NCBI RefSeq assembly: GCF_030056575.1
Contig: NZ_JASHHX010000001.1
Coordinates: 1 to 64,000 of the forward strand
DNA length: 64,000 nucleotides
Direction: 5' to 3'
Source: Rhodoblastus sp. 17X3
GTDB taxonomy: Bacteria > Pseudomonadota > Alphaproteobacteria > Rhizobiales > Beijerinckiaceae
Made by a program: the position numbers and the translations under genes. Positions 2,786-18,115 of the stretch are shown piece after piece. Under the pieces are notes generated by a model. It made no database searches and was not told the DNA's origin. It worked only from the letters and a program-made list of their open reading frames with translations. Position 1 is the first letter of the stretch, and the number at the start of each line of letters is the position of its first letter.

Positions 2786-2851
2786 CGGAATTGACGACGC
2801 TGCTGCTTCTAACCGGGTGGCCGCATATTCGCCGCAGTTGGAGGAACTGCC

Positions 2852-3577
2852 ATGCCACATCCAATCGAACGTCGAAGCTTTTTGCAGGGCGCCGGAGCGC
2901 TTTCGGGGGCCGCAATCCTCGCCGTCAACGCTGAAGCCTCCGCTCGCGCTGAAACTGTGTCCATTCATGGGAAGAAGCCGATGTCCTATGAACCAAAACC
3001 GATGTCTTTCGACCCCAAAAACGTCAAAGGCATTTCAGATAAAGTCCTCGTCAGCCATTACGAGAACAATTACCTTGGCGCGGTGAAGCGCCTCAACGCC
3101 ATCGGCGTGCAACTGGCGGAACTCGATTTCGTTAAGGCGCCGAATTTTATCGTCAACGGCCTCAAGCGCGAAGAACTCATCGCCCTGAATTCAATGATCT
3201 TGCATGAGGCCTATTTCGACAGCCTCGGCGGCGGCGGCGCGCCCTTGGACGCGCTCGCCGACGCGATCGACCGCGACTTCGGCAGTTTAGATCGCTGGCG
3301 CTCGGAATTTTCCGCGATGGGCAAGGCCGAGGGCGGCGGGTCCGGATGGGTCATCCTCGCTTTTTCTCCGCGCGACAAGAGGTTGGTCAATCAATGGGCC
3401 GCCGACCACACGACGACGATCGCCGGCGGTCGGCCAATTCTCGTACTCGATATGTACGAGCACGCCTATCACATGGATTATGGAGCGAAAGCTGGCGCCT
3501 ATGTCGACGCCTTCATGGAGGCGATCCGCTGGGACAACGCCGCCAAGCTCTTCGACCAATATAGCCGCGAGGAGTGA
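2852..3577 (+). CDS. Exported Fe/Mn superoxide dismutase (ChrC-like)
   Basis: 241 residues. The N-terminus has a twin-arginine-type signal (ERRSFLQGAGALSGAA), so export to the periplasm is likely. The SOD fold follows, with all four metal ligands recognisable: His in SHYENNYLG, His in LHEAYFDSLGG, and Asp and His in LDMYEHAYHMDYG. It would dismutate superoxide. SODs (ChrC) accompany chrB genes in several chromate loci, where chromate reduction creates oxidative stress; that is family knowledge, and its use here is inferred. It lies 66 bases after chrB on the same strand. Confidence 0.85.
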   Translation: MPHPIERRSFLQGAGALSGAAILAVNAEASARAETVSIHGKKPMSYEPKPMSFDPKNVKGISDKVLVSHYENNYLGAVKRLNAIGVQLAELDFVKAPNFIVNGLKREELIALNSMILHEAYFDSLGGGGAPLDALADAIDRDFGSLDRWRSEFSAMGKAEGGGSGWVILAFSPRDKRLVNQWAADHTTTIAGGRPILVLDMYEHAYHMDYGAKAGAYVDAFMEAIRWDNAAKLFDQYSREE

Positions 3578-3634
3578 GCCCGACGCCGTGCTCCTCTTCG
3601 CTGCGATCGAAAGGCGCCGCTGGACGACGATCCC

Positions 3635-4687
3635 ATGAAACCTCACTCAGGCTACGTTGTTGGCGCGCCGGCCCTTATGCTGGCCGCCGCGGCTGCGTGC
3701 TTCCCGATCTGCGTGCTGTTCGCGACCGATGTGGCGACGGCGCTTGGCCTCGGCGAAGCTCCCGCCGCGACAGTTCCGGAATTGACCCTGGCGGAAGCTA
3801 TTCCGCTCGGCGCGGTCAAAGGCCGACTCGACCATATGGCCATCGATTTGCGCCGCGGACGGCTGTTTGTCGCGGAACTGGCGAACAACTCCCTCGCCGT
3901 CATCGACTTGAAGGCGGGCAAATTGGCTCAGCGGATAAAAGGACTGAGCGAGCCGCAGGGCGTCGCTTATGCGCCGGAAACGGATCGCTTGTTCATCGCC
4001 AATGGCGGCACGGGCGTCGTCCAGATGCGCAAGGGCGATGATCTCGCGCTCATCCGGGAAATCGCCTTGGGCGAGGATGCCGACAATATCCGCTTGGACG
4101 GTCCTGACAGGGTCATCGTCGGTTATGGCGGCGGCGCCCTCGCAGTGCTCGACGCGGCAAGCAGCGAGAAAACCACGGACATTCCGCTTGCGGCGCATCC
4201 TGAGGCTTTTCTGCCCGAGCCGGGCGGCGACCGCATTTTTGTCAATGAGCCGCGCGTCTTGCGGACCGCCGTGATCGCGCGCGCGTCCAGACAGGAGACG
4301 GCGCACTGGGGCGCGCCGGGCGCGGCGGCCAATTTTCCGATGGCGCTGGACGTGAAGGGGCGCCGGCTATTCATCGTCTACCGCTTGCCAGCCCTGATCG
4401 CAGCCATCGACACAAGCAGCGGCGCGCTTTCGAGCCAGTTCGCAACCTGCCGCGACGCCGACGACGTCTTTCACGACGCCGCGCGCGACCGCGTTTACGT
4501 TATCTGCGGCGAAGGCGCGATCGCCGTGCTCGACGCCAGCCATGGCGGCCTTCGAAGCCAGTCGCTGCTGCAAACCCGCTCTGGCGCGCGCACCGGCCTG
4601 TTTGCGCCTGAACGCGACCGTTTGTTCGTCGCCGTTCCAGCCCATGCGGGCCGACCAGCCGAAATCCGGGCCTATCGGCCGAAATGA
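3635..4687 (+). CDS. Exported YncE-like beta-propeller protein
   Basis: 350 residues with a hydrophobic N-terminal segment (ALMLAAAAACFPICVLF) acting as signal peptide or anchor. The rest consists of repeated blades of the type GRLFVAELANNSLAVIDLKAG, RLFIANGGTGVV and DRVYVICGEGAIAVLDASHGG. This is the YncE/YVTN seven-bladed propeller type. Such proteins bind ligands or partners in the periplasm; no catalytic site can be assigned. It lies 57 bases after the SOD gene and appears co-transcribed. Confidence 0.7.
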   Translation: MKPHSGYVVGAPALMLAAAAACFPICVLFATDVATALGLGEAPAATVPELTLAEAIPLGAVKGRLDHMAIDLRRGRLFVAELANNSLAVIDLKAGKLAQRIKGLSEPQGVAYAPETDRLFIANGGTGVVQMRKGDDLALIREIALGEDADNIRLDGPDRVIVGYGGGALAVLDAASSEKTTDIPLAAHPEAFLPEPGGDRIFVNEPRVLRTAVIARASRQETAHWGAPGAAANFPMALDVKGRRLFIVYRLPALIAAIDTSSGALSSQFATCRDADDVFHDAARDRVYVICGEGAIAVLDASHGGLRSQSLLQTRSGARTGLFAPERDRLFVAVPAHAGRPAEIRAYRPK

Positions 4688-4736
4688 CGCGCTCTTGGGC
4701 GCGGAACAGCAACCAAGTGGGAACGAATTGATCGCA

Positions 4737-5096
4737 ATGCGGAAAATGACCGGAATGGGGCTATTCGCCACGAGCCTCATAGTCTGCTCTGCGGCCTTCG
4801 GCGCTTCACCGCAGAGCGAAGGGTTTCGACAGCTTACAGGTCCCCAAATCACGCAGGCGCTCGTCGGCAGGACGTTTTCCGATGACATCCATTTCTCCTT
4901 TCGCTATCGCCCCAAGGGCGTGATCGAGGGGATGAGCATGGGCCGCAAAGTCACGGACAAATGGGTGATCCAGGGCAATCGCCTCTGCGTGACCGACAGT
5001 TTTGGTCAGAGCTGCTATGTCGTCTGGAAGAAGGGCGCCGCGGTGAAGCTCGTCGTCGAAGGGACGGAAGTCATACTCGACGGTTTTGTGCGGTGA
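4737..5096 (+). CDS. Small exported protein of unknown function
   Basis: 119 residues. MRKMTGMGLFATSLIVCSAAFGAS looks like a cleavable signal peptide. The mature part ends in a beta-rich pattern (KWVIQGNRLCVTDSFGQSCYVVWKKG) with two cysteines that could pair in the periplasm. I do not recognise a named family with certainty. The start at 4737 gives the signal peptide; the same frame is open further upstream inside the preceding gene. The stop overlaps a possible GTG start of the following transporter gene. Confidence 0.6.
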   Translation: MRKMTGMGLFATSLIVCSAAFGASPQSEGFRQLTGPQITQALVGRTFSDDIHFSFRYRPKGVIEGMSMGRKVTDKWVIQGNRLCVTDSFGQSCYVVWKKGAAVKLVVEGTEVILDGFVR

Positions 5097-5134
5097 CCAA
5101 ACAACGAGCAACAAGCGGCTCCCGATTGCAACCA

Positions 5135-6325
5135 ATGGGCGCGCCGCTAACGCTTCTCTTTTTGGCGCGTGGAACGCGCGACTTCGGCGATGGCTTCGTC
5201 GCGGTGCTGCTGCCGCTTCACCTGCTGCGCCTCGGCTTTTCGGCATTCGAAGTCGGCGCGCTGGCGGGGACGGCGCTGCTCGGTTCCGCCTTGCTCACCT
5301 TGGCGATCGGCCATCTTGGAACGCGCCATGATCTCCGGCGCTTGCTGCTCTGCGCCGCCGGCCTGATGACGGCGACCGGTCTGGCCCTGTCGCTTGTCGA
5401 CGCCTACGCGCCCCTGCTCGTCGTCGCCTTTGTCGGGACCATCAACCCCTCCGGCGGCAGCGCCAGCGCCTTCGTCCCGATCGAACACGCCGTCATGACG
5501 CGCGAGGCGACGGACGCGGATCGCACGCGGGTGTTCGCCCGCTATAGCCTCGTCGGGGCCTTGGCCGGGGCCGGAGGCGCTCTCGCCGCGTCGCTGCCCG
5601 ACTTTCTCGTCAGAGCTGGCGCGTCGGAGCCATCCGCCACAAAAGCGATGTTCCTTCTTTATGCGGCGCTCGGGCTTGGCGGCGGTCTTCTCTATGCTTG
5701 CGTTCCGCGCCGCCCGCCGCCGCCCGAACAGGCGGCAGGCGCAGCGCTCGGTCCGTCGCGCAAGATCGTCTACAAGCTCGCCGCCTTGTTCAGCCTCGAC
5801 GCTTTCGCTGGCGGCTTTGTCGTTCAGTCCCTGTTGGCTCTTTGGCTATTCCAGCGTTTCGATCTGTCGCTTTCTCAAGCCAGCCTGTTCTTCTTCTGGA
5901 CCGGCGTGCTCTCCGCATTCTCGTTTCCGGTCGCCGCATGGCTGGCGGCCCGCATCGGCCTCGTCAATACGATGGTGTTCACCCACATTCCGTCGAGCGC
6001 CTGCCTCATCGCAGCCGCCTTCGCGCCGTCGTTGCCCTTGACCCTGGGGCTGTTGCTGGCGCGAGCGGCGCTCTCGCAGATGGACGTGCCGACACGCTCA
6101 TCCTATGTCATGGCCGTGGTCACCCCGCCTGAACGCGCGGCCGCCGCGAGCTTCACTTCTGTTCCGCGCAGCCTCGCCTCATCGCTGAGCCCGGCGCTCG
6201 CCGGCGCGCTTTTCGCCTTGTCCTGGCCGGCGGCGCCGCTCGTCATCTGCGGCAGCCTCAAGATCGTCTATGACCTCTTGCTGCTGCGCCAATTCCGGCA
6301 TCTGAAACCGCCAGAGGAATCTTGA
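5135..6325 (+). CDS. MFS transporter
   Basis: About 396 residues, nearly all hydrophobic, with roughly 12 membrane segments. The start of the protein carries FLARGTRDFGDGFVAVLLPLHL and a loop TRHDLRR after the second or third helix, in line with the major facilitator superfamily. The ATG at 5135 has no clear Shine-Dalgarno sequence. An in-frame GTG at 5093 overlaps the previous stop (GTGA), giving 14 more residues through translational coupling, and is a real alternative. As ChrA is absent, this is the only inner-membrane transporter in the cluster and could be the exporter for whatever ion or compound the cluster handles. The substrate is not known. Confidence 0.75.
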   Translation: MGAPLTLLFLARGTRDFGDGFVAVLLPLHLLRLGFSAFEVGALAGTALLGSALLTLAIGHLGTRHDLRRLLLCAAGLMTATGLALSLVDAYAPLLVVAFVGTINPSGGSASAFVPIEHAVMTREATDADRTRVFARYSLVGALAGAGGALAASLPDFLVRAGASEPSATKAMFLLYAALGLGGGLLYACVPRRPPPPEQAAGAALGPSRKIVYKLAALFSLDAFAGGFVVQSLLALWLFQRFDLSLSQASLFFFWTGVLSAFSFPVAAWLAARIGLVNTMVFTHIPSSACLIAAAFAPSLPLTLGLLLARAALSQMDVPTRSSYVMAVVTPPERAAAASFTSVPRSLASSLSPALAGALFALSWPAAPLVICGSLKIVYDLLLLRQFRHLKPPEES

Positions 6326-6566
6326 GTTCGACATGGCGCATGGTGAAAGCGCGACCTCCCGATGTTCAACTTGGCGATCGACTGCAAACTGAGACGCCGC
6401 GATCTTGCCTGCCTGAAAATCGACGATTGGTGTATTGGCGGCAGACTGCGCGACCGCGCGACGATCATCCAAAATTGACGGAAAGTGCGGTTCAATTCGA
6501 ACGCACGTAACAGACCCCTCGAAATTGGAGAGAATCGGCGAGCGCCACGCAAAGGTCTCCTTCGGT

Positions 6567-6896
6567 TCAGGGGGCAATATTCAGCGCGCCTTTCATTCCA
6601 GGATGAAAGCGACAAAAGTAATGGATGTCGCCTTCTCGCTTGAGCATAGTCCTGCCTTTCGCACCGGGCGGCAGGTCAATATCGAAACTGCCGTCCGTGG
6701 CGGTCGCTGTATGCCGGAAGATATCGGCGTTGTTCCATTCAATGACGTCGCCGACCCGCAGTCCCTCTGGCGCCTCGCCATAGGCGAGATGATTCACGAC
6801 GATCGAATGCACCGACGGATCAGCCGTCGCGCCGCCCGTCGCGATCAAGGCTACGAGCGAGGCTGTCAGCGTCCTTGTGACCATAGATTTGATCAT
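6567..6896 (-). CDS. Exported cupredoxin (plastocyanin/amicyanin-like)
   Basis: 109 residues with a signal peptide (TLTASLVALIATGGATA). The mature part is a single cupredoxin domain. Type-1 copper ligands are visible: His in DIFRHTATA, and Cys, His and Met in the loop YFCRFHPGMKG near the C-terminus. It should bind one copper and act in periplasmic electron transfer or copper handling. It is the second gene of a leftward pair, 9 bases after the DUF4142 gene, divergent from the ECF sigma gene. Confidence 0.85.
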   Translation of the reverse strand: MIKSMVTRTLTASLVALIATGGATADPSVHSIVVNHLAYGEAPEGLRVGDVIEWNNADIFRHTATATDGSFDIDLPPGAKGRTMLKREGDIHYFCRFHPGMKGALNIAP

Positions 6897-6905
6897 GCAA
6901 GCAAC

Positions 6906-7433
6906 CTATTTCAGCTCGCCAACGAGATGTTCGGCGTGCTTTTCATGTTCCGTAAAAAGCTTCAATCCAGTCTCCAGGAGTCCCTTCAGTTCGGTGTTTT
7001 TCGCTGAAGGAATCAAGCTGCCGGCAAGGGCGCCGTTGACAGTCTTGTGATAGGCGACTTCGTTCTCGGCATAGGCCTTGTCGAAAGCGGAACCGCTCAG
7101 CTTAGCCAATTCCCCTCTTTTCTTGTCGGCCCCTTGCACGAGGGATTGACTGGTGGCGTTGTCCTCGGGCTTGACATTGAGCTTCTTGACCAGCGCAAGC
7201 GCCTGATTATTGACGGCCGCATGATCTCTGGCCATTTCTTCCGCGAATGCGCGGACGTCTTTATCCTTCGACTTCTGCAGCGCCTGGTTCGCCGCCTCAA
7301 TGTCGATCTGTCCCGCAGTATAGGCGATGTGAGCGATTTGCGGGTCGGTTAGCGGTGAAGGCGATTGCGCTTGCGCGCCGATCGCCAAAGCGCACAGGGC
7401 CGCGCCCGCGAGGATGCTTCGTGCATGGATCAT
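6906..7433 (-). CDS. DUF4142 exported protein
   Basis: 175 residues. Signal peptide (ILAGAALCALAIGAQAQS), then a helical ferritin-like DUF4142 domain (LTDPQIAHIAYTAGQIDIEA; FAEEMARDHAAVNNQA; late FTEHEKHAEHLVGELK). The start is the ATG complementary to 7431-7433, preceded by AAGGAG at good spacing; the frame is open further upstream but without such a signal. DUF4142 proteins are periplasmic and often stress- or sigma-factor-linked; no enzymatic role is established. It is first in the pair with the cupredoxin gene. Confidence 0.85.
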   Translation of the reverse strand: MIHARSILAGAALCALAIGAQAQSPSPLTDPQIAHIAYTAGQIDIEAANQALQKSKDKDVRAFAEEMARDHAAVNNQALALVKKLNVKPEDNATSQSLVQGADKKRGELAKLSGSAFDKAYAENEVAYHKTVNGALAGSLIPSAKNTELKGLLETGLKLFTEHEKHAEHLVGELK

Positions 7434-7515
7434 GGTTGTTCTCCTTGGGGAGACGGAGGCCAACAAGCTCCGCCCCTTTTTGACGGCGGCCATTGGATGC
7501 CGGTCCTGAAAAAAG

Positions 7516-7547
7516 GTTCCCGGGAACTTTTTCCCGGCGCGACCGTC
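7516..7547 (+). promoter_or_regulatory. Probable ECF-sigma promoter with divergent GGAAC boxes
   Basis: The plus strand shows GGAAC at 7523-7527, 17 bases, then GTC at 7545-7547, matching the GGAAC-N16/17-GTC pattern of many ECF sigma promoters. It lies 85 bases before the sigma gene. The reverse box GTTCC at 7516-7520 forms a palindrome with it (GGTTCCCGGGAAC), so a leftward promoter may share the centre, though its -10 match is weak. Confidence 0.55.
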
Positions 7548-7631
7548 AATTCTCTGACGGACGCTGCGGCGCGCTTTTTTGTGCGTCGCGGGCGGATCAA
7601 CATCGCAGGCCAGGCAGTTCGGAGCATTCAA

Positions 7632-8330
7632 ATGAAAGAAAGCACGACCCGGGCCACGATTCTTGACGCCGTATCAGACATCGAACTGTTGGCGCGCACG
7701 GGAGCCGGCGACACGCAAGCATTTGTCGCGTTGATGCAGCGGCACAATCGCCGCCTTTATCGGGTCGCGAGAGCGGTGGCGGGCAATGACGTCGAGGCCG
7801 AGGACATTGTCCAGGCGGGCTGGACGCATGCCTTTGCGGCCGCAGGCGGCTTTCGCGGCGAATCCCAGGCGTCGACCTGGCTCGTGCGGATTGTCCTCAA
7901 CGAAGCTTTCGGGCGGCGAAGGAAGCAACGTCCCATGATCGAGATCGAAAAGCTGGATGACCGATTGGAGGCCGAGGTCATCGCCTTCCCTTCAAACCGA
8001 AGCAATCCGGAAACAGACGCCGAACGGGCGCAGATCCGTAAAATGCTCGAAAAAGCCATCGACGACCTTCCGCCGCCGTTTCGTACGGTCTTCATGATGC
8101 GCGCCGTCGAGGACATGACCATCGATGAGGTGGCCGCCGCGCTGAATTTACCGCAGGCCACAGTAAAGACCCGGCTGCATCGCGCTCGCGCCAGGCTCAG
8201 ATGGACGCTCGAACAACGCGTCGGAGCCAACCTGAACGAAGCGTTCTCATTCGAGGGCGCGAGGTGCCGCAGGATCACAGAACGAGTCTTGGCCGCGCTT
8301 GCGCTCACAACGCCGGATGGAGCCCCATGA
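7632..8330 (+). CDS. ECF-family RNA polymerase sigma factor
   Basis: 232 residues. Region 2 (LMQRHNRRLYRVARAVAGNDVEAEDIVQ) and region 4 (IDDLPPPFRTVFMMRAVEDMTIDEVAAALNLPQATVKTRLHRARARL) are intact. The start ATG at 7632 places region 2 at the usual distance; the frame is open upstream but without support. No anti-sigma gene follows. Instead the divergent neighbours are DUF4142 and cupredoxin genes. The promoter-like element between them suggests autoregulation and control of these two. The signal may be copper or envelope/redox stress, which is inferred. Confidence 0.88.
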   Translation: MKESTTRATILDAVSDIELLARTGAGDTQAFVALMQRHNRRLYRVARAVAGNDVEAEDIVQAGWTHAFAAAGGFRGESQASTWLVRIVLNEAFGRRRKQRPMIEIEKLDDRLEAEVIAFPSNRSNPETDAERAQIRKMLEKAIDDLPPPFRTVFMMRAVEDMTIDEVAAALNLPQATVKTRLHRARARLRWTLEQRVGANLNEAFSFEGARCRRITERVLAALALTTPDGAP

Positions 8331-8354
8331 ATTTCCGACTGATTGCAAAGTTCT

Positions 8355-9863
8355 TCATCCGGCAGGATATGAACCAGGATCTCGCCGCTGGACAAGTTCC
8401 TGTCCGAAAAGGAATGGATCCCCGAGGGCGTTAAACAGTCCAATTTTTTCCGCCATTTTATCGATTAGCCCTGTTAACAGCGGAGACAATCGCTGTGCCG
8501 AGGAACAACAGAGCACGCTGATAGCGTCGCGATATTTTTCGCAGTAAACGGGGCCGATTCCGGCGATCGGCGCCATGCCGAGCCGGGTCAGCATCCTGTC
8601 TTGACGATCTCTTGTTCCCGCGCCGCAAATCGCGAAGCCATGCAACGTGCCGGAAGCTTTCCCGATAGCGTCAGCAACGGCGGCCGATGCCGCCGCCAAC
8701 TGAACGCTCAGTCCGAAATCGCGATTTTTCGCGCGATATTCAGGGTCGACGACCCATCTCCCGATTTCCACAATTTCATCGTGTCTTGCTCCCAATATTC
8801 GCAGCATCTGCGAAAACATTTCCGCGCCGAGAGTTTTTTCGGTGAGACACGCGGGTCCATCACGATCGAGGTGATAGAGCCGCACGCAACCGACGAGTTT
8901 GGACCCGTCATAGGCCAGGACATGAAAGGCGTGGCGATCAATTGGATCAGGATCGAGAAAGGCGCCGGCCGGAGTCCTGAACGCCGGCCGGCGGCCGCCT
9001 TCGTAAAAAGCCTTCCCGCGAAGAGCCCTGACCTCTGCGAGCCAATCGAGAGTTGACCTGTTATTGTCCCGATCCAGTTTCCAACCGGGCGGCTCTTTCA
9101 GCCGCCAGCTGAGCGACGCGCGAGGGACGCAATGGCTTTGGGCGCCCTTCGCTTGCATATCGGCGAGCCGCACGCAGTCGCCAAGAAAGCTTGGATAAGC
9201 CACTAGAGACGCATCACCCGCTGCTGCGAGCGCGGAAAGACTCCAGGGCGCGCGCTCGATCAGATCGTTCAGCGCTCGCGCATTGAGGGCCGTGTGGGCG
9301 CCATCCAGAATGATGTGCTTCGTGATAAAACTAAGGCAGGAAATAATGTCGGGACCGAGCAATTCGATGCAACGCCCCACAACCAGCTGGCCGTAACGCA
9401 AGGGCAGCATCTCGATTTCATATTCGATCGCGACCTGAGCGAATGGCGTTTCGCCCGCGATGTTTTCTTCGTGCATCTGGCAATATGTCATGACGCCGGG
9501 GCTGGGCGCCTGATCGAGCATGTCATCGGCGTCCACGGAGGGCGCGTGGGTTGCGTTCCATCGCGCGGCGAGAGACCGCAGATCGGCGATCATCAAGAGG
9601 TGATGATCAGCCTCCGCGGAGGCATGACGGGCCAATGCGCGTCCGACCTGCGTGAACCCGATCTGCTCGCAACGAACGCCCGCACGGCGAATCCAGCCCT
9701 CTACCGGCTGAGTCATATGCGCGCCCAAGGCGCAGAAATTCATCAGGAACAGTTCCGCGCGGGTCGCATCCTCCATTGCCTGCAGGCTTTTCACGCCAAA
9801 GCTTTCGTCGAAGCGTTGGCGAGCGGGGGCGAGAAGAATTTCGTAGTCTGACAAAGACGCCAT
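8355..9863 (-). CDS. Fusion: haem-oxygenase-like (HDO-type) domain + GNAT N-acyltransferase
   Basis: 502 residues in two parts. Residues ~25-210 are helical and resemble iron-containing redox enzymes with a haem-oxygenase-like fold. Candidate metal ligands are E37, H80, E84, H87/H88 (ARHASAEADHH), E147-E151 (EYEIE) and D187/H190 (DGAH). Residues ~270-455 resemble the FeeM/exosortase-associated GNAT acyltransferases related to autoinducer synthases (FHVLAYDGSKLVGCVRLY, EIGRWVVDPEYR). The ATG at 9863 has GAGGAG upstream. It is the last gene of a leftward operon with an ABC exporter and an MlaC-like protein. I infer synthesis and oxidation of an N-acylated small molecule. Substrates are unknown, and the redox assignment rests on motif spacing only. 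Confidence 0.6.
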   Translation of the reverse strand: MASLSDYEILLAPARQRFDESFGVKSLQAMEDATRAELFLMNFCALGAHMTQPVEGWIRRAGVRCEQIGFTQVGRALARHASAEADHHLLMIADLRSLAARWNATHAPSVDADDMLDQAPSPGVMTYCQMHEENIAGETPFAQVAIEYEIEMLPLRYGQLVVGRCIELLGPDIISCLSFITKHIILDGAHTALNARALNDLIERAPWSLSALAAAGDASLVAYPSFLGDCVRLADMQAKGAQSHCVPRASLSWRLKEPPGWKLDRDNNRSTLDWLAEVRALRGKAFYEGGRRPAFRTPAGAFLDPDPIDRHAFHVLAYDGSKLVGCVRLYHLDRDGPACLTEKTLGAEMFSQMLRILGARHDEIVEIGRWVVDPEYRAKNRDFGLSVQLAAASAAVADAIGKASGTLHGFAICGAGTRDRQDRMLTRLGMAPIAGIGPVYCEKYRDAISVLCCSSAQRLSPLLTGLIDKMAEKIGLFNALGDPFLFGQELVQRRDPGSYPAG

Positions 9864-9930
9864 TTCATTCTCTCCTCTCGTTTTGCGAGCAGTGTGTCCG
9901 GGGCGGTCGCCTCGCCGCGACGGCCAGGAT

Positions 9931-11049
9931 TCAAGGTCTCCGCAGCGCCTCCGCCGGGCTCATCGACGCCGCGCGCCAGGCAGGATAAAGCGATCCGACC
10001 GCGCAGAGGGCGATCGACGCCAGCAGCGTCGGCGGCGTCATCGAGAGGCTGGGGTGAAAAGATAAAATATCGCCAATGGCCGGGAGGTATTTGAACAGCA
10101 GGGATATGGCGTAGGACAGCGGAATCCCGATGATACAGCCCGCTATCCCGATCAGGACGCCCTCGAACACGATCGACGCCATTGTTCGCGCCCTGGACCA
10201 TCCGATCGCCGATAGGATTCCGATCTCCCGCGTACGCTCCTGCACCGCCATCAGCAGTGAATTGAGGACGCTCAGCCCCCCCATCGTGAGCGCGATCAGC
10301 GATACCGATCGCGATATGGCCTTCATGACCAGAAGATTGCGGTCGCGCTGGAGCAATTGATCTGTCGGCGTGGCGAATAGCAAATCCATTCGCCCGATCT
10401 CCGACTTGATCGCCTCGATCGCAGCCGGCGGAAGCGTCGGCTGTAGCTTGATCTCAAACATCGTGACCTGATTTTGCCTGTAGGCGATCTCCTGCATTTC
10501 GGACAAGGCCATGTAGATCATCGAGCGGTTGAGCGCGGACTGATAACTCGCGATCCCGACGACGCGGAACCTTGTGTCGAGGATGTCGAGCGTGTCTCCG
10601 ACATCCTTGTGCAATGCTTCCGCTGCTCCCGCCCCAAGGACGACGCCCCTACCTTCGTGCGGCCCGGGAACATGGCCGCTGGCGATTGGCATTCCTTTCC
10701 AGAAGAAGCTGTCTGCGGCCCAGCCGGTCAGGACTTTCTGTTGATCGTGATCCACCGGCGCATACATCAAGAGCTCGCCTGCGACAGCCTTGACGCCGTG
10801 GAGCGACGCAAGCTTGTTCTGGACATCTTCGGCAATGAAGCCGGAAAAAATATCGGAGGCGTTGCGTGAGAGAACGGTGAGATCGGCGCCGCGCTCATCC
10901 ACCCCTTCTGCGACGCCACGGCTGACGCTGTCTGCAAGCGCGACCAAACTCAGAGCAGAGGCGACAGCGAGGCCGACGCTGAACGAGACGACCGCCGTAC
11001 GCGTGGCTCTTCGTTGCAGGTTGCGAAGCGCGAGCGTGAACAGATTCAC
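9931..11049 (-). CDS. ABC transporter permease, MacB/FtsX type
   Basis: 372 residues. One N-terminal membrane segment (~18-40), a large periplasmic domain (~41-240), then three membrane segments. The C-terminal half has the FtsX signature (QERTREIGILSAIGWSRARTMASIVFEGVL) and ends with YPAWRAASMSPAEALRRP. This topology is that of mechanotransmission exporters (MacB, LolC/E). Its start overlaps the stop of the ATPase gene (ATGA), so the two are translationally coupled. The HDO-GNAT gene follows after 67 bases. Confidence 0.85.
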   Translation of the reverse strand: MNLFTLALRNLQRRATRTAVVSFSVGLAVASALSLVALADSVSRGVAEGVDERGADLTVLSRNASDIFSGFIAEDVQNKLASLHGVKAVAGELLMYAPVDHDQQKVLTGWAADSFFWKGMPIASGHVPGPHEGRGVVLGAGAAEALHKDVGDTLDILDTRFRVVGIASYQSALNRSMIYMALSEMQEIAYRQNQVTMFEIKLQPTLPPAAIEAIKSEIGRMDLLFATPTDQLLQRDRNLLVMKAISRSVSLIALTMGGLSVLNSLLMAVQERTREIGILSAIGWSRARTMASIVFEGVLIGIAGCIIGIPLSYAISLLFKYLPAIGDILSFHPSLSMTPPTLLASIALCAVGSLYPAWRAASMSPAEALRRP

Positions 11050-11786
11050 GGCGATGTCCCCATCGTTCGTTGCTGACGCGCTTTCCCAATTTCAACGGCC
11101 GCCAGCGGTGCGCTCGAGTCGTCGACAATGCGCCCATCCATGATCGTGACGCGGCGGCGACAACGCCCGGCGAGATTTTCGTCATGGGTCGCAATGACCA
11201 GAGCCATGCAGTGCGTTTGCTGGATTTCCAGCAGGAGCTCCGTGATCGATGCGGCATTGGCGGAATCGAGGTTGCCTGTCGGCTCGTCTGCGAGCAGCAG
11301 GGCCGGCGTGTTCGCCAGACTTCTGGCGATCGCGACGCGCTGACGCTCGCCACCTGATAGAGCCGCCGGAAGGTGGCGCATGCGCGCTTCCAATCCAACC
11401 CTCGCCAGCAGTTCGGCGGCGCGGCGCCGGCGCTCGCGCGAAGAGCGTCCATCCATCAGCGCCAATTCGACATTTTCCATCGCGGTTAATGTCGGCAGCA
11501 GATAAAATTCCTGGAACACGATGCCGATATGGCGCCCGCGAAGTCTTCGCCACCCACGCTGGTCGCACACTTCTTCCTCGCGCCAAAAGACTTTGCCGGT
11601 CGTCGCTTCGTCGCAGCCGGACAGCATATGAATGAGAGAGCTCTTGCCGCTGCCGCTCTTGCCCAAGAGGGCGATGCAGTCGCTCGCATAGGTCGAGAGG
11701 CTTACGTCGCATAATGCGACAACCGCGCCGTCATCAAATTTGCGGCTGACATTCTCGAGGCGGATCAACGGAGACAAAGCCGTCAT
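11046..11786 (-). CDS. ABC transporter ATPase, MacB/LolD type
   Basis: 246 residues. Walker A GKSGSGKSS, Q-loop GIVFQEFYLLPT, signature LSGGERQRVAIARSL, Walker B LLLADEPTGNLD and H-loop ATHDE are all present and complete. The DEPTGNLD wording is typical of LolD/MacB/FtsE ATPases. The start at 11786 is chosen because the ABC domain begins directly after it; the frame upstream is open but lies in the MlaC-like gene. It pairs with the FtsX-type permease that overlaps its 3' end. Confidence 0.88.
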   Translation of the reverse strand: MTALSPLIRLENVSRKFDDGAVVALCDVSLSTYASDCIALLGKSGSGKSSLIHMLSGCDEATTGKVFWREEEVCDQRGWRRLRGRHIGIVFQEFYLLPTLTAMENVELALMDGRSSRERRRRAAELLARVGLEARMRHLPAALSGGERQRVAIARSLANTPALLLADEPTGNLDSANAASITELLLEIQQTHCMALVIATHDENLAGRCRRRVTIMDGRIVDDSSAPLAAVEIGKARQQRTMGTSP

Positions 11787-11817
11787 ATCGAAAGGTCTCT
11801 CAAACACGATCCCGCAT

Positions 11818-12435
11818 TTAGCGGCCCAGCATCTCCGTCGCGACGTCAATGTCGTCATTGTTGCGGCCGAGAAGAGCCTTCGTTTCGTTCCGCAGTGAAA
11901 TGACCGCGCTGCGACCATCGACCACGACATCCACTGCCTGTGCTTTTCCGACGCCGTGAAGACGCCAGATAATCATGTGGGCCGGCTTGCTGGAACGCGT
12001 GGCGAGGAGACGCGCGCTGTCCTCGCCCCGCTTCAATCCAAGCAATTCGAGAAGGTTTCCCTCGGCCCCCTGGTTTTGCCGAATACAATCGCGGATCGCC
12101 CATCGTCGCGCAGCCGCGCGAAAGGCGACGCGCTGCTGGGGCGACATGCGGACCCAGACCGGTCCCGTCGCGCTCTGGGCGACGGCGTCCATATTGATCG
12201 CCGTCGTCACAATCCGATCGCAAGCGTGATGGGTCTGCGCTGCAGGATGGGCTGCGGATTCCGTGATGATCCTATTGATGGTGGCGAGAAATTCGGCGTC
12301 CTGCGGATCAATCTCAGCCGCAGCGGCGCTGAAGCGTGCGGACGATCCCACGACGACGCCTACGCCAATCGCGGCTGCCAGGGCGAACGACGCCCAGTGA
12401 CCGGCCTTTGAGCGCCAACAGCTCCGTCCAGGCAT
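11818..12435 (-). CDS. MlaC/Ttg2D-family periplasmic lipid-binding protein
   Basis: 205 residues. A hydrophobic N-terminal segment (HWASFALAAAIGVGVVVGSSA) is a signal peptide. The mature protein has the MlaC layout: a helical part with NMDAVAQSATGPVWVRMSPQQRVAFRAAARRW, and a C-terminal strand part with IIWRLHGVGKAQAVDVVVDGRSAV. MlaC proteins carry phospholipids or other acyl lipids across the periplasm, normally with MlaFEDB. Here the neighbours are a MacB-type ATPase and permease, an unusual partnership. The ATG at 12435 has AGAGG upstream; GTG 12483 and ATG 12465 are weaker. It is the first gene of the operon, 31 bases before the ATPase gene. Confidence 0.7.
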   Translation of the reverse strand: MPGRSCWRSKAGHWASFALAAAIGVGVVVGSSARFSAAAAEIDPQDAEFLATINRIITESAAHPAAQTHHACDRIVTTAINMDAVAQSATGPVWVRMSPQQRVAFRAAARRWAIRDCIRQNQGAEGNLLELLGLKRGEDSARLLATRSSKPAHMIIWRLHGVGKAQAVDVVVDGRSAVISLRNETKALLGRNNDDIDVATEMLGR

Positions 12436-12532
12436 CGTCAAGCCTCTGATCGTGAGCACGGACATAGTCGATTTCACCTGCACACGAGCGCCGGCGTCCG
12501 AAGGAAGCCTGGGTCATCGCCGGTCGGGCGGC

Positions 12533-12943
12533 TCAATAGCCGTAGTCATTACAAATGTTGGCCCATTGCCAGCCGTAATAAGTCCATATGCGGCGCCAGC
12601 ACGTATCCCCATAATAGCCTGCGCCGACAAAGGGCGCGCCGACGAACACGACATTGTTGAAACGGTGATGCCGCCGGAAGGCGAAATTATGGAAGGCGAC
12701 GCGCTGGTGAACAAATGGCGCTCCGGCTCTTGGGCCAAACGCCATGCCCCCGCGAAATCCGCCGCCGCCAAAATGCGCCGGGCCGCCACGCATCGCGCCG
12801 AAGCCGCCGCCGCCGAAATGCATTCCGCCGCCGTGCATGCCCCCAAAGCCCCCGCCGCCGCGGAACGCCGCAGCCGGCGCCGCAACCATCATCGCCCCGC
12901 CGAGCGCCGCAGCGGCCAAGCCAATCAACCGTCGGTTTTTCAT
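12533..12943 (-). CDS. Gly/His-rich small exported protein
   Basis: 136 residues. Signal peptide (IGLAAAALGGAMMVAAPAAA), then Gly-rich repeats of the type GGGGFGGMHGGG/MHFGGGGFG with many Met and His, and a C-terminal aromatic segment with two cysteines (CWRRIWTYYGWQWANIC). Such proteins are common in Hyphomicrobiales and have no known function. GAGGA lies upstream of the ATG at 12943. The gene is divergent from the response regulator, with the repeated regulatory element A between them. It could also be the leader gene of the MlaC/ABC/HDO-GNAT operon, 97 bases downstream. Confidence 0.7.
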   Translation of the reverse strand: MKNRRLIGLAAAALGGAMMVAAPAAAFRGGGGFGGMHGGGMHFGGGGFGAMRGGPAHFGGGGFRGGMAFGPRAGAPFVHQRVAFHNFAFRRHHRFNNVVFVGAPFVGAGYYGDTCWRRIWTYYGWQWANICNDYGY

Positions 12944-13138: not shown

Positions 13139-13831
13139 ATGATCGGCAAACCATCACGCATTCTTGTCATTGAAGACGACTGCGAGACGGCTGAGCAGCT
13201 CGTGGATTCGCTTGCGACGCATGGCTACGAAGTCGACCTCGCCCTCGACGGCGATCAAGGTCTGAAGCTCGGTCGTTCAGTCAATTACGCCGCAATGACG
13301 ATAGACCGCATGCTCCCGGGCATTGACGGAATTTCACTGATCCGACTGCTGAGGGACGAGGGTGTTTTCACGCCCGCCCTGATCGTGAGCGCACTTGGCG
13401 AGGTTGACGATCGCGTACGCGGCCTGCGCGCTGGCGGAGACGATTATCTCGTCAAGCCCTTCGCCTTCGCGGAACTACTTGCGCGTGTCGAGGCCCTCTT
13501 GCGTCGAAGTGAAAGCCCCGGCAAGGAAATCGTCTTGCGCGTCGGCGACCTTGAGCTCGACCTGGTGTCGCGGGAAGTCACCCGCCGCAACCAGAAGATC
13601 GACTTGCTGCCAAGAGAGTTTCAGGTGCTTGAATTTCTCGTGCGCAATCAGGGCCATGTCGTCCCACGGGCGATGCTTCTGCAACATGTGTGGGATCTGC
13701 ATTTCGACCCCATGACCAACATCATCGACGTCTATGTTGGCCGCGTGCGCCGGAAGATCGAGGCCGGTCAAGCATATCCACTCATTCACACCATAAGGGG
13801 CGTAGGCTTCTGTGTCCGAGCTCCTGGCTAA
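13139..13831 (+). CDS. OmpR-family response regulator
   Basis: 230 residues. Receiver domain ~6-120 with acidic pair IEDD near residue 11, phospho-acceptor D56 in TIDRMLPGIDG and the conserved Lys in DDYLVKPFAF. C-terminal winged helix ~130-228 (LLPREFQVLEFLVRNQGHVVPRAML, TNIIDVYVGRVRRKIE). It is a DNA-binding regulator phosphorylated by the kinase whose GTG start overlaps its end by 20 bases. It probably binds elements A and B. Confidence 0.92.
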   Translation: MIGKPSRILVIEDDCETAEQLVDSLATHGYEVDLALDGDQGLKLGRSVNYAAMTIDRMLPGIDGISLIRLLRDEGVFTPALIVSALGEVDDRVRGLRAGGDDYLVKPFAFAELLARVEALLRRSESPGKEIVLRVGDLELDLVSREVTRRNQKIDLLPREFQVLEFLVRNQGHVVPRAMLLQHVWDLHFDPMTNIIDVYVGRVRRKIEAGQAYPLIHTIRGVGFCVRAPG

Positions 13832-15209
13832 AACGCTTCGATCCTCGACATTCCGGCAGGCCCTCGCTGCGATCCTGATCTTTGGCGCGGTCGTCGTCGG
13901 GCTATTCGCTTATGTCTTTTGGGCGACGACGAATTATGTCCTGGATCACTCGACGCGCGCGACCGAAACCGAGATGGGCGAGTTGCGGGACGTCTTTGTG
14001 ACGAAGGGGCGAGATGCGTTGATCGCCGCACTGTCGCAAAAAGCCTCCGTCCCGGCATCCAAAAGCAATGTCTATCTGCTCGCCGATCCGTCTTTTGCGC
14101 CTGTTGCCGGCAATCTCGCTGGGTGGCCGCCGTCCGCGAAAACATCGGTCGGATGGGTGGAATTCAGAATGCGTAATGGCGCGCCTTTGTTGGGCGCCGT
14201 CGCCGCGACGCTGCCCGATGGCAGCCACCTGCTTGTCGGTCGGGACATTGCCGAGCTCGACCGTTTCACCGAAAAAATCAAGGCGGCCTTTGTTTTCAGC
14301 CTGGCGTTCATTTTCGCGCTTGCAGTTTTCGCCAGCGTGGCTGTGACGCGGCGAACGGTGGGGCGCATCGAGGCTGTCAATGCGACCAGCCGCGCCATCA
14401 TGCAATGCGGTCTGGGTCAGCGAATTCCGCTGCGCGGGACACATGACGAATGGGATGAACTGGCTGCAAACCTCAATCGGTCGCTCGACCGCATCGAAGA
14501 ATTGATGGAGCAAGTGAAACAGGTGAGCGACAATGTGGCGCATGATCTCCGTACGCCGCTCGCCCGCATGCGCGGACGGCTCGAAAAAGCATACCATGGG
14601 GAGCGCGAAGCCGCGCGCGACCAGTCCGTGATTGGGGAAGCTATCATCGAACTCGATGGCGTCCTGCGCATGTTCGCCTCGCTTACGCGAATTTCCCAAA
14701 TCGAAGCAAATGAAGGATCGACGCCGCTTCGGCCGGTCAACTTGTTCGCCATAGCGAATGAGGTCGTCGAATTATTCGACGCCGCCGCCGAAGAATCCGG
14801 AGTTCATCTCAAAGTCATTGGAGATCCCGACGTCGTCGCGATGGGCGACCGAGATCTCCTGTTCGACGCCGTCGCCAATCTCGTCGACAACGCCGTCAAG
14901 CATGGTCGCCCCAAGGGCCAGGTGTCGGTGGAAGTCAAAAAAAGCGACGGCGATTCGGTTGTTTCCGTCGCCGACGACGGACCGGGAATTCCATTATCCG
15001 AACATCAGCATGTTTTCGAGCGCTTCTACAGGCTCGAGCGAAGCCGCCAAAGCCCGGGCAACGGGTTAGGCCTCAGCCTCGTCGCCGCGGTCGCGCGTCT
15101 TCATGGGGCGCGTGTCGAACTTATCGACAAAGCGCCGGGACTTGTCGTGCGACTTAAGCTTCAACAATCCGGCGAGTTGCGTCCTTTCAGTTCGGAAGGC
15201 GCCGGCTGA
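13812..15209 (+). CDS. Sensor histidine kinase
   Basis: 465 residues, GTG start inside the end of the response regulator gene. Membrane segments at ~17-38 and ~159-179 enclose a periplasmic sensor of about 120 residues. Then HAMP, HisKA with H244 in NVAHDLRTPLARM, and HATPase with N-box LVDNAVKHG, DDGPGIP and GNGLGLSLV. The layout matches classical EnvZ/QseC-type kinases. The ligand is unknown. The MacAB-like operon downstream and the acyl/ABC operon upstream are possible targets. Confidence 0.92.
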   Translation: MSELLAKTLRSSTFRQALAAILIFGAVVVGLFAYVFWATTNYVLDHSTRATETEMGELRDVFVTKGRDALIAALSQKASVPASKSNVYLLADPSFAPVAGNLAGWPPSAKTSVGWVEFRMRNGAPLLGAVAATLPDGSHLLVGRDIAELDRFTEKIKAAFVFSLAFIFALAVFASVAVTRRTVGRIEAVNATSRAIMQCGLGQRIPLRGTHDEWDELAANLNRSLDRIEELMEQVKQVSDNVAHDLRTPLARMRGRLEKAYHGEREAARDQSVIGEAIIELDGVLRMFASLTRISQIEANEGSTPLRPVNLFAIANEVVELFDAAAEESGVHLKVIGDPDVVAMGDRDLLFDAVANLVDNAVKHGRPKGQVSVEVKKSDGDSVVSVADDGPGIPLSEHQHVFERFYRLERSRQSPGNGLGLSLVAAVARLHGARVELIDKAPGLVVRLKLQQSGELRPFSSEGAG

Positions 15210-15636
15210 TTCAAAAATGGACGTCAAGGCGAAACCGGTCAGATCATCTTGCCGATAAGTATTTCCACGTTTTCGTGATCCAAATTCGGATATTCCGAAA
15301 CTAACAATTTTGTCAGAATCTGTCGAATTAGTCATTTGAAAATACACGTGTTTTCTGCCTGAATCCGTTCTCGCGACGTTGGAGCGCCTGCGAGACCGGC
15401 GATCAGGAACCATTGATCGCCATGCGATCGTCTGCGTAATGCGCCAGCCTGCTGTGGCCTTGGCCTCGTAGCGCAAAACCCGTGGTCGGAGAATCTGACG
15501 TTCTTGTGATATTTGCCTCCATTGCTGCTCCACTGCGGCCGTTGGCCTCATGCGTCGGTTAGCGAAGGGCGCAGCGGCGTCTGTTATGACAGATATAGCT
15601 CTGCGACCTGATCGGAATTGCGAAAGGAGCTTAGGC
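15210..15636. other. Intergenic region holding element B
   Basis: No gene with support. The left part, 15288-15341, is the inverted copy of element A. The remainder is GC-rich sequence with antisense open frames that show no domain. AAAGGAG at 15623 is the ribosome binding site of the next gene. Confidence 0.5.
15288..15341 (-). promoter_or_regulatory. Regulatory element B (inverted copy of element A)
   Basis: On the minus strand this segment shares blocks CAAATGACTAAT, CGACAG, TTCTGACAAAA and GTTAGTTT with element A in the same order and spacing, differing in about five bases and one indel. It lies 79 bases after the kinase gene and about 300 before the small exported protein gene. It is probably a second binding site for the response regulator. 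Confidence 0.5.
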
Positions 15637-15945
15637 ATGAAAACCATCATTACATCTTTTGCGGTCGGTGCTGTCCTTGCGTTATCGGCTGCGCAACCGG
15701 TCTTGGCCATGGGACAACCGGGCACGTCAGCGGGCGTGAATTGTGGATCCGGCTCCGCCTTATTGACGCCCGGCCATTCGGCGGCGTCGCCAGGTGCGCC
15801 GTTCAACGAGCCATCGGCGACGAGTTCGGGCGGCAAGGCCGGACAGGTTTACGCCGGATCGGGTCCGTCGGCCATCCATGCCGGAAGTCCGAACGCGGTC
15901 TCCCAATATGACATCGCCTGTCAGAATGTCACACAGAAGCCCTAA
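15637..15945 (+). CDS. Small exported protein of unknown function
   Basis: 102 residues. Signal peptide (MKTIITSFAVGAVLALSAAQPVLA), then a low-complexity Ser/Gly/Ala-rich mature part with two cysteines (GVNCGSG and DIACQN). AAAGGAG lies upstream of the ATG at 15637. No known function. It lies between the two-component system and the MacAB-like operon; element B is upstream. Confidence 0.65.
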   Translation: MKTIITSFAVGAVLALSAAQPVLAMGQPGTSAGVNCGSGSALLTPGHSAASPGAPFNEPSATSSGGKAGQVYAGSGPSAIHAGSPNAVSQYDIACQNVTQKP

Positions 15946-16017
15946 CGCAGCGTGTCACTTTGCCTCAGCCCCCTTTGGCTAAAGGGGGCGGTCGGCATCC
16001 GCGAGAGGTATGGCGCC

Positions 16018-17382
16018 ATGCCTTTCCTGAAACTCGCTATTCCGGTCGGCGTCCTGATCGCGGGGCTAGGCTTTTTTTACGACCAGACGGGCTCGGCGCC
16101 GACCTACCTCACCGCTCCAGTCCGGCCGGGGAGGATCGCGACTTTTGTCAAAGCGAGCGGCTCCGTAGAGGCGGTAGTCACTGTCGATGTCAGTTCGCAA
16201 CTCTCGGGCCGGATTGCCGACGTCTTTGTCGATTTCAATGATTCTGTCAAAGCCGGACAGCCGATTGCACAGCTCGACCAAGACATTTACGCAGCCCGAG
16301 TGAACGAGGCGGGCGCCGCATTGCGCGTCGCCCGCGCGACCGCACTGGTGCAAGATGCGGCGCTCGAACGGGCGAAAGTCGAGGTGACAACTGCGCAAAC
16401 CGCCAAATCGCTTGCGGAAGAGCAGGCGGTCGCGATCAAGACGAAACAAGGCGAACTGGAAAGGGATTTCCAAAGGAAGGTCCAGCTGGAGCGAACGGGC
16501 AGCGGTTCGGAACGAGATTTGAGCCAGGCGCGGGCGCTGCGCGACACCGGAGCCTCCGATTTGCGCGCGTCGCTTGCGCAAATTCAGATGAAAGCGGAAG
16601 CCATTGCGATTGCTGAAGCAGAAACGCATATGGCCGAGGCAAATCTGGACAATGCGCAAGCGGTCGTCGAGCAAAAACAGGCAGCGCTCGATCAGGCGAA
16701 GGTCGACTTCGATCGCACCGTCCTGCGCGCTCCGATTGATGGAATTATCATCAAACGAGACGTCAATCCGGGCCAAACAGTCGCTGTCAGCCTCGAAGCG
16801 AAGACATTGTTCAAAATCGCGAATGAGCTGCGGGAGATGGACGTCCAAGGAAAGATCGACGAGGCTGACGTTGGGCAGCTTCGAATTGGCCAGATCGCCA
16901 GGTTCACCGTGGACGCCTATCCAGACCAGACCTTCGGCGGCAAAGTCATACAGATCCGCAAAACTCCCGAGGTCGTCCAAAACGTCGTCACTTATACGGC
17001 GATCATCTCCGCCCCAAATCCGGATCTCCTGCTCTTACCGGGAATGACGGCCCAGCTTCGGATCGCAGTGAGCGATACCGGCGAGGTTCTCAAAATCCCC
17101 GGTCAGGCGTTGCGGTTCCGGCCAAAAATCGAGGGCGGCCAAACGGGAAGCGGATTGGCCGGCAGCCGACTCGGGAACCAAACCCCGCCCCGTTCGAGCG
17201 CCATCGTGTGGGTGCTCGGCAGCGATGGACGGCCGAATCCGCTCGCCGTGAAGCTGGGCGCCAGCGACGACACCGGCGCGGCGTTGCTTGACGGCCCGTT
17301 GACCAAGGGCCAGGCGTTAATCATCGGGTTCGCGAATTCGCAGAAGCGGAAGGATTATTTCGGGTTTCGGTTGGGGTTCTGA
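16018..17382 (+). CDS. Membrane fusion protein, MacA/HlyD type
   Basis: 454 residues. N-terminal membrane anchor (LKLAIPVGVLIAGLGFFY), biotinyl-lipoyl-like part (VDVSSQLSGRIADVFVDFNDSVKAGQPIAQLD), a long alpha-helical hairpin (~90-230, Ala/Glu/Lys/Gln-rich), the second lipoyl half (VDFDRTVLRAPIDGIIIKRDVNPGQTV), then a beta-barrel domain. It is the periplasmic adaptor of a MacAB-type tripartite exporter. The ABC ATPase gene starts one base after its stop. No outer-membrane TolC gene is in this window. Confidence 0.88.
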   Translation: MPFLKLAIPVGVLIAGLGFFYDQTGSAPTYLTAPVRPGRIATFVKASGSVEAVVTVDVSSQLSGRIADVFVDFNDSVKAGQPIAQLDQDIYAARVNEAGAALRVARATALVQDAALERAKVEVTTAQTAKSLAEEQAVAIKTKQGELERDFQRKVQLERTGSGSERDLSQARALRDTGASDLRASLAQIQMKAEAIAIAEAETHMAEANLDNAQAVVEQKQAALDQAKVDFDRTVLRAPIDGIIIKRDVNPGQTVAVSLEAKTLFKIANELREMDVQGKIDEADVGQLRIGQIARFTVDAYPDQTFGGKVIQIRKTPEVVQNVVTYTAIISAPNPDLLLLPGMTAQLRIAVSDTGEVLKIPGQALRFRPKIEGGQTGSGLAGSRLGNQTPPRSSAIVWVLGSDGRPNPLAVKLGASDDTGAALLDGPLTKGQALIIGFANSQKRKDYFGFRLGF

Positions 17383-17383
17383 C

Positions 17384-18115
17384 ATGCCGCCACTCATCAG
17401 CGCCCGCCGACTTTCGAAATTATACCCCTCAGGCGGGACGGTCATTCATGCAGCTTCGGACGTTTCAATGTCCGTCGAAAGCGGCGAATTTATCGCCATT
17501 CGCGGGCGATCGGGCTCCGGGAAATCGACCTTGCTCAATATTCTCGGTCTTTTGGAGCGGCCGGATTGCGGCGAATACGTTTTGAGCGGTCGCGCGGTGG
17601 CCAGTTTGAGCGAGTCTGCCCGCGCCGTACTAAGGAACCGGGAAATCGGCTTTGTCTTCCAATTGCCAGCCCTCTTGCCGCGGGCGACCGCGCGGGAGAA
17701 CGTCGAACTGCCGCTGATCTATGCGGGCGCGACCCGCCGCGAGCGGCGCCACAGAGCGGAATCCGCGCTGGATCGGGTTGGTCTGTCCGATCGCATCCGC
17801 CACTACCCCAACCAGCTGTCCGGCGGAGAACAGCAGCGGGTCGCCATTGCGCGCGCGCTTGTGAACGATCCAGCGCTCATTTTGGCCGACGAACCGACCG
17901 GCGCGCTGGATAGCGTCACCAGCGACCAAATCCTGTCCTTGTTCCAAGATCTTCATCGCGAAGGCCGCACGATCATCATCGTCACGCATGGCGCTGAGGT
18001 CGCGCGGCGCGTTGAACGCCAGATCACCTTGCATGACGGGAAGATCATCAAGGATGACGCGGCGCCGAATGAGGGACCGAAACCCGACGATCTTATCCTG
18101 AGCGAAAAGCTATGA
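17384..18115 (+). CDS. ABC transporter ATPase, MacB type
   Basis: 243 residues. Walker [11 protein letters not shown]-loop [12 protein letters not shown], signature [15 protein letters not shown], Walker [13 protein letters not shown] and H-loop VTHGAE. In MacB proper ATPase and permease are one chain; here they are separate genes with a 4-base overlap (ATGA). It powers the permease encoded by the next gene. Confidence 0.9.

Follow-up and report, generated by a model that had tools for sequence, protein, structure and literature searches.

A putative HDO-GNAT fusion enzyme encoded beside a Lol-like ABC pair and an MlaC-family protein in Rhodoblastus

The closest described pathways to the locus reported here are tyz and trz, in which a GNAT enzyme is reported to N-acylate aromatic amino acids, the acylated product then being desaturated by an O2-dependent flavin oxidase (PMC10404671, PMC12856293), and the N-acyl dehydrotyrosine clusters called nas, which likewise combine a synthase with an oxidase (PMC12479983). 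The tyz and trz clusters encode an N-acyltransferase (TyzA/TrzA), a flavin-dependent oxidase and a ThiF-like cyclase. We analyzed a stretch of 64,000 nucleotides from Rhodoblastus sp. 17X3 (assembly GCF_030056575.1, contig NZ_JASHHX010000001.1, positions 1 to 64,000; hereafter the window), in which four leftward genes encode a protein with an HDO domain fused to a GNAT domain, the permease and the ATPase of an ABC transporter, and an MlaC-family protein. This set resembles tyz, trz and nas in joining a predicted N-acyl amino acid synthase to a predicted O2-dependent oxidase, but its oxidase is an HDO domain fused to the synthase, and the unit adds an ABC pair and an MlaC-like protein. We take it to be a variant of the synthase-plus-oxidase pathway with a predicted HDO as the oxidase and a putative added transport set. 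A Pfam scan of the four proteins and ten neighboring open reading frames found no ThiF or nitroreductase family. We propose, at a rough probability of 0.42, that the fusion is a two-step N-acylation/oxidation enzyme for which, in Rhodoblastus, a Lol-like ABC pair and an MlaC-like protein serve as pump and carrier; the enzyme part alone, acylation plus oxidation, has a somewhat better than even chance of being correct. The genes and domains concerned, with the evidence for each, are as follows.

11818..12435, minus strand: MlaC-family protein gene, 205 aa from the ATG at 12435 (PF05494, dN/dS)
11046..11786, minus strand: ABC transporter ATPase gene, nearest NCBIfam model LolD (dN/dS)
9931..11049, minus strand: FtsX/MacB-type permease gene, 372 aa, GTG start (MacB_PCD and FtsX)
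8355..9863, minus strand: HDO-GNAT fusion enzyme gene, 502 aa (Pfam, AlphaFold, Foldseek, dN/dS)
9138..9863, minus strand: predicted HDO domain, residues 1-242 (AlphaFold, Foldseek, identical residues in 10 of 10 aligned proteins)
8358..9134, minus strand: predicted GNAT acyl-synthase domain, modelled residues 244-502 (Pfam, separate model, Foldseek, conserved residues)

Only 31 bp separate the MlaC-like gene from the ATPase gene, the ATPase and permease genes share a 4-base ATGA overlap that holds the GTG start of the permease, and the widest gap within the set, 67 bp, lies between the permease and the fusion gene. The MlaC-like reading frame has a possible alternative GTG start at 12483, giving a longer form. 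The sister genome, probably that of Rhodoblastus sp. BP08 (NZ_JAGRPM010000038.1, locus L011), has the four genes in the same order. The dN/dS values between the two genomes are 0.27 for the fusion, 0.15 for the permease, 0.10 for the ATPase and 0.26 for the MlaC-like gene, and all four genes look selectively maintained. The two gaps, the overlap and the maintenance of all four genes in the sister argue for an operon. A scan for promoters and terminators gave signals no more frequent than in shuffled sequence.

The HDO Pfam model is not among the families listed for the fusion at E ≤ 1. We assign the N-terminal half to HDO because a Nostoc protein to which it is 44% identical scores over the PF14518 cut-off (31.8 against 28.9 bits) and because AlphaFold and Foldseek support the same assignment. 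The AlphaFold model of the full-length fusion is confident over residues 1-242, which are predicted to form a seven-helix heme-oxygenase-like fold. Foldseek ranks the heme-oxygenase-like structure 3dde best (E 6.0e-6), followed by Chlamydia CADD (8vag, E 3.1e-4) and heme oxygenases; UndA comes at rank 12. Searching solved structures by sequence returned nothing relevant. Residues E84, H87, E147, E149, E151, H183, D187 and H190 are identical in all 10 aligned proteins. The putative diiron ligands are E84, H87, E151 (or E147/E149), H183, D187 and H190, a set of three histidines and three carboxylates on core helices 1-3 that was assigned by sequence, not by model geometry. Their spacing (E84-x2-H87, then E151 32 residues before H183-x3-D187-x2-H190) agrees with that reported for AetD, D76-x2-H79, then E140 32 residues before H172-x3-E176-x2-H179 (PMC11611611). 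An invariant E55 stands 29 residues before E84; in AetD, F48, 28 residues before D76, takes the place of the seventh ligand of SznF (PMC11611611), and by this analogy a 3H/4C metal site is possible in the window protein. By its predicted fold and ligand set, the domain may bind two metals and activate O2.

The predicted seven-helix fold and the 3-His/3-carboxylate ligands are shared with CADD, UndA and AetD, but every intact HDO family member found here has a GNAT partner. A 2026 HDO review, which puts the characterized HDOs at only about a dozen, mentions neither an acyltransferase nor a fusion (PMC13108848). In titles and abstracts of open-licence PubMed Central papers we found no description of an HDO with an N-acyl synthase partner, which is weak evidence of absence. 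Fusion to a candidate N-acyl synthase points at a substrate class for this HDO.

The C-terminal half passes two Pfam cut-offs, Acetyltransf_5 (38.6 bits, cut-off 22.4) and FeeM (27.5 bits, cut-off 27). Modelled apart, it reached a pLDDT of 75.1 and a pTM of 0.77; the domain models were built from alignments A2 (for the fusion) and A6, and alignment A5, in which GNAT rows were misplaced onto the HDO half, was left unused. In a Foldseek search of this model ranks 1-7 are the acyl-homoserine lactone (AHL) synthases BjaI, RpaI, LasI and EsaI, with FeeM from rank 15, and the predicted fold is nearest to acyl-amine synthases of the FeeM/LuxI/OlsB class. Thirteen residues, including R282, D306, D309, R328, E366 and R369, are identical in all six aligned proteins, two of which are OlsB-like proteins from L003 and L007, the two scanned among the loci that carry a GNAT only. 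OlsB models give both of these proteins their highest scores, which slightly exceed one cut-off for L003 and fall short for L007. We take this series of conserved residues to be of the type of the LuxI catalytic signature. The predicted fold and conserved residues of the window GNAT are those of LuxI-type AHL synthases (BjaI, RpaI), FeeM and OlsB, but the protein is barely over the FeeM cut-off. Pfam lists three families for the fusion at E ≤ 1, and the autoinducer-synthase family is not one of them; no OlsB NCBIfam model is listed for it either, the sole NCBIfam entry being TIGR03694, far under its cut-off.

In the Lol system a soluble periplasmic carrier partners the ABC transporter. Both LolCDE-LolA and MacAB combine an ABC ATPase with an FtsX-type permease, and so does the window set: in Pfam the ATPase matches ABC_tran (110.8 bits, gathering cut-off 25) and the permease matches FtsX (66.4 bits, cut-off 25.5) and MacB_PCD (65.5 bits, cut-off 27). 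The best NCBIfam model is LolD for the ATPase (204.9 bits, under the cut-off of 307.75) and LolCE for the permease (71.9 bits, under the cut-off of 362.45); the MacB model gives 60.7 and 175.7 bits for the pair, with a cut-off of 966. By these models the pair leans towards LolD/LolCE rather than MacB, under every cut-off. The MlaC-like protein, in its longer GTG-started form, matches PF05494 at 41.2 bits (cut-off 26). It has a single hydrophobic stretch at residues 11-35, a signal-like N-terminus and a soluble remainder, and is a putative periplasmic lipid carrier. The window set is like Lol in having a soluble carrier as partner, but that carrier is of the MlaC family and the LolD/LolCE cut-offs are not reached. 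It differs from MacAB in that no HlyD/MacA-type family was found among the four proteins (Pfam) and in missing the MacB cut-off. The carrier shares its Pfam family with MlaC of the MlaFEDB system and with HpnM; unlike MlaFEDB, the four genes include no MlaE or MlaD family in Pfam, the transporter genes being an ABC ATPase and an FtsX/MacB_PCD permease, and the carrier lies far under the HpnM cut-off in NCBIfam (25.9 against 160.1 bits). Defence-system models match neither the fusion nor the MlaC-like protein and give general ABC-type matches only for the ATPase and permease. If the transport part of our proposal is true, an MlaC-family protein would work with a Lol-like extruder and not with MlaFEDB. 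We found no description of MlaC with a MacB- or Lol-type natural-product exporter in titles and abstracts of open-licence papers, again weak evidence of absence.

An earlier note on this DNA, made from the sequence alone, had described four tightly spaced leftward genes with one ATGA overlap, and the open reading frames (12435-8355) confirm this layout. Its MlaC-like lipid-binding protein is upheld by the PF05494 score over the gathering cut-off, and its HDO and GNAT domains by structure prediction of each domain, Foldseek and Pfam; since both domain assignments are supported, so is the acylation and oxidation chemistry that it proposed, at the level of prediction. An export set made of the other three genes is plausible. 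The MacB-type ABC transporter of the same note stands in part: there is a separate ATPase with an FtsX/MacB_PCD permease, but the NCBIfam scores are nearest to Lol, not MacB.

In the mechanism that we propose, the GNAT half would N-acylate an amino acid or a related amine with an acyl group taken from acyl-ACP or acyl-CoA, as its fold, family and conserved residues suggest. The dimetal center of the HDO half would then use O2 to oxidize the N-acyl product, a step suggested by fold, ligands and the pairing of the two domains; the likeliest reactions are desaturation, decarboxylation and hydroxylation. In Rhodoblastus the product would be hydrophobic; the Lol-like ABC pair would extract it from the inner membrane and pass it to the MlaC-like protein in the periplasm, which would carry it onward, presumably to the outer membrane. 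Gene order and family membership point to this extraction and hand-over, which are modelled on the behavior of the Lol and Mla systems. The substrate, the order of the two steps, and the service of pump and carrier to the enzyme product are what we infer.

We also examined HDO homologs in other bacteria. A scan of species-genome contigs used two peptide patterns only, and its 10 loci are a lower bound. The sister locus L011 carries the same fusion. In L012 (Bryobacteraceae) and L015 (Acidobacteria) HDO and GNAT are separate genes with a 4-base overlap, in L019 (Acidimicrobiia) the GNAT gene begins 3 bases past the HDO stop, and in L013, L014, L016, L017 and L018 (four Nostoc and one Amazonocrinis) the GNAT gene lies just upstream of the HDO gene. 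Of 172 genomes in the family to which the L013 genome belongs, three matched in a profile search: those of L013 and L014 and one with a further locus, L063. With the window included, 11 loci from four phyla have an intact HDO gene, and in all 11 a GNAT is either fused to the HDO or encoded next to it on the same strand. This count leaves out L020, in which only a 48-residue stretch matches (a fragment), and genome G1654, with a partial match (E 2.3e-5, profile positions 158-233). In the window, L012 and L019 the GNAT passes a Pfam cut-off; for L015 the label rests on 49.5% identity to the GNAT of L012. The HDO has few matches: one among 247 genomes of the phylum to which the L015 genome belongs and, with a weak partial match excluded, one among 148 of the class of the L019 genome, in each case the genome that carries the locus itself. 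In L014 two HDO genes of equal length, with identical beginnings and similar scores, stand in tandem (6681-7433 and 7633-8385). Judged by these sequences, the conserved unit is HDO plus GNAT, and transporter and carrier stand outside it. As a conserved four-gene operon, the proposal of the earlier note is not supported by this comparison: in the stretches compared, HDO homologs from Acidobacteriota, Cyanobacteriota and Actinomycetota lack the permease and MlaC-like genes, which is the first of the two outcomes that the note named as refuting. The second, that neither domain would have its proposed fold, did not arise. Their absence elsewhere counts against a conserved operon and is still compatible with a local one in Rhodoblastus. 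A broader reading, rather unlikely in our judgment, is that four phyla share a distinct HDO subfamily, always partnered by an acyl-synthase-like GNAT, whose products are oxidized N-acyl (or N-aroyl) amino compounds of an undescribed class, and that in Rhodoblastus, where the two enzymes are fused, the Lol-like ABC pair and the MlaC-family carrier form a dedicated line delivering the product across the envelope.

In all five Nostocaceae loci of the scan, the GNAT and HDO genes come after genes for three other enzymes, namely a DAHP synthase, an aromatic amino acid lyase and an AMP/CoA ligase (3417-12041 in L013; also L014, L016, L017 and L018). Farther along stand a tyrosinase and a chorismate mutase in L013 and L014, a prephenate dehydrogenase in L014, and an O-methyltransferase in L016-L018. 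In L063 the ligase, GNAT and HDO are intact and the lyase is reduced to its C-terminal piece, with which a shortened DAHP synthase lies in frame (5771-7045), as if fused by a deletion. These neighbors point to aromatic precursors and an aromatic natural-product pathway, on whose cluster the HDO and GNAT pairing gives a handle; no description of its product was found in the open-licence PubMed Central literature. The substrate in Rhodoblastus may differ from that in Nostocaceae, because no aromatic amino acid lyase was found in any of three genomes of the genus (that of the window, its sister and a third).

Within the relatives of Rhodoblastus the fusion is rare. Full-length matches occur in 2 of 60 genomes, that of the window (G000) and its sister in the same genus grouping (G003), and in 2 of 11 within the genus. 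Matches in the order, class and phylum samples, which overlap, number 3 of 397, 4 of 385 and 2 of 398 genomes with the own genome counted each time, and the others cover only part of the GNAT half. The MlaC-like protein is matched in the same two of 60 genomes. The permease is matched in 40 of 41 genomes; beyond the two orthologs, the matches listed are at most 36% identical, as is to be expected in a large family. We found the complete set of four genes in two genomes only, that of the window and one sister, both Rhodoblastus. A comparison with an empty site was dropped, as the flanking response regulator likewise has no close match outside these two genomes (the next best reaches 54%).

Several results weigh against our proposal. 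Homologs of the window permease and MlaC-like protein (E 1e-4) occur in L011 only; loci negative for both are L012, L015 with the overlapping L066, L013, L014, L016, L017, L018, L063, L019 and L020, of which L012, a stretch of 4 kb, carries little weight for this absence. The ATPase query found general ABC proteins at 25-33% identity in the loci outside Rhodoblastus. The coupling of enzyme and pump rests on two sister genomes, and the ABC and carrier proteins pass no Lol, MacB or HpnM cut-off in NCBIfam. On the side of the enzyme, the GNAT half has a pLDDT below 50 in the full-length model, from which contact between the domains cannot be judged. The Nostocaceae GNAT, that of L013, is under the Pfam cut-offs (the others are 70-75% identical to it), and its alignment to the window GNAT profile is not significant (hhalign probability 2.8%); for both reasons the Nostocaceae pairing may involve a different kind of GNAT.

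Enzyme and transporter could also be mere neighbors, with a product that is soluble or diffuses and an ABC pair and MlaC-like protein that form a separate system for envelope lipids or stress. This would fit the occurrence of HDO and GNAT elsewhere without the transport genes, the position of the widest gap between permease and enzyme, and a region rich in envelope transport, where a two-component system adjoins an HlyD-type protein, an ATPase and a MacB-type permease. We consider it somewhat unlikely: the MlaC-like protein and the fusion are never found apart, each in the same two of 60 genomes, close permease homologs occur only in the same two of 41, and the sister keeps the order of all four genes. 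It is improbable, for the enzyme itself, that the HDO acts first, on a free or carrier-bound acyl chain or a free amino acid, before the GNAT joins the oxidized part to an amine. The Foldseek matches of the HDO half include UndA in complex with fatty acids, and the substrate of AetD is a free amino acid (PMC11611611), but the order of steps is not readable from sequence, and in tyz N-acylation precedes desaturation (PMC10404671). More improbable still is a diffusible signal made by the GNAT as an AHL-like synthase and modified by the HDO: AHL synthases, among them RpaI with a p-coumaroyl-CoA adduct, are what the GNAT model matches best in structure, and the lyase and CoA/AMP ligase in Nostocaceae could supply an aryl-CoA, but the fusion has no autoinducer-synthase Pfam match, no LuxR-type gene was recognized among the Pfam-scanned genes adjoining the operon, and a diffusible compound makes an MlaC-like carrier unnecessary.

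One further reading frame stands 97 bp upstream of the MlaC-like gene, and its membership in the four-gene unit is uncertain.

12533..12943, minus strand: small Gly-rich protein, probably secreted

No Pfam family matched this protein. In the sister genome less DNA separates its gene from the MlaC-like gene, and window bases 12455-12514 fall outside the alignment of the two genomes.

A divergent unit at 13139-19347 encodes a response regulator, a histidine kinase, an HlyD-type protein, an ABC ATPase and a MacB-type permease. The Lol-like pair thus has a more complete MacAB-like set as its neighbor. On the other side, at 6906-8330, a convergent gene for an ECF-type sigma factor, whose end lies 24 bp from the fusion stop, adjoins a gene for a DUF4142 protein; the dN/dS of the sigma factor gene, 0.37, is the highest of the genes compared with the sister.

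An FtsX/MacB-type permease related to that of the window (30% identity over 80% of the query) is encoded on the Granulicella tundricola plasmid pACIX901 (L041). Its cluster is similar in that an ABC ATPase and a soluble LolA-like carrier stand beside an AMP ligase, an SDR and a glycosyltransferase-like gene, but the carrier is LolA_like, not MlaC, and the 11 annotated features name no HDO or GNAT. The stretch 1268-8315 of this locus may be a further set that makes a lipid and exports it by way of a soluble carrier. Among other neighborhoods of permease homologs, inspected by eye, L079, L080 and L082 seem to hold HlyD, an ATPase and a MacB-type permease; no MlaC-like gene was evident by eye in L079-L083, whose reading frames had no Pfam scan.

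In searches of mobile elements the fusion had no match among phages, and plasmids gave no match to the MlaC-like protein or to the HDO proteins of Nostoc and Bryobacteraceae. The single plasmid match of the fusion covers the GNAT part only and falls on a Streptomyces protein annotated as ThiF (L043:7890-10804, NZ_CP109497.1). This protein, with a GNAT-like part, adjoins a beta-ketoacyl-ACP synthase III and resembles a fused tyz-like enzyme.

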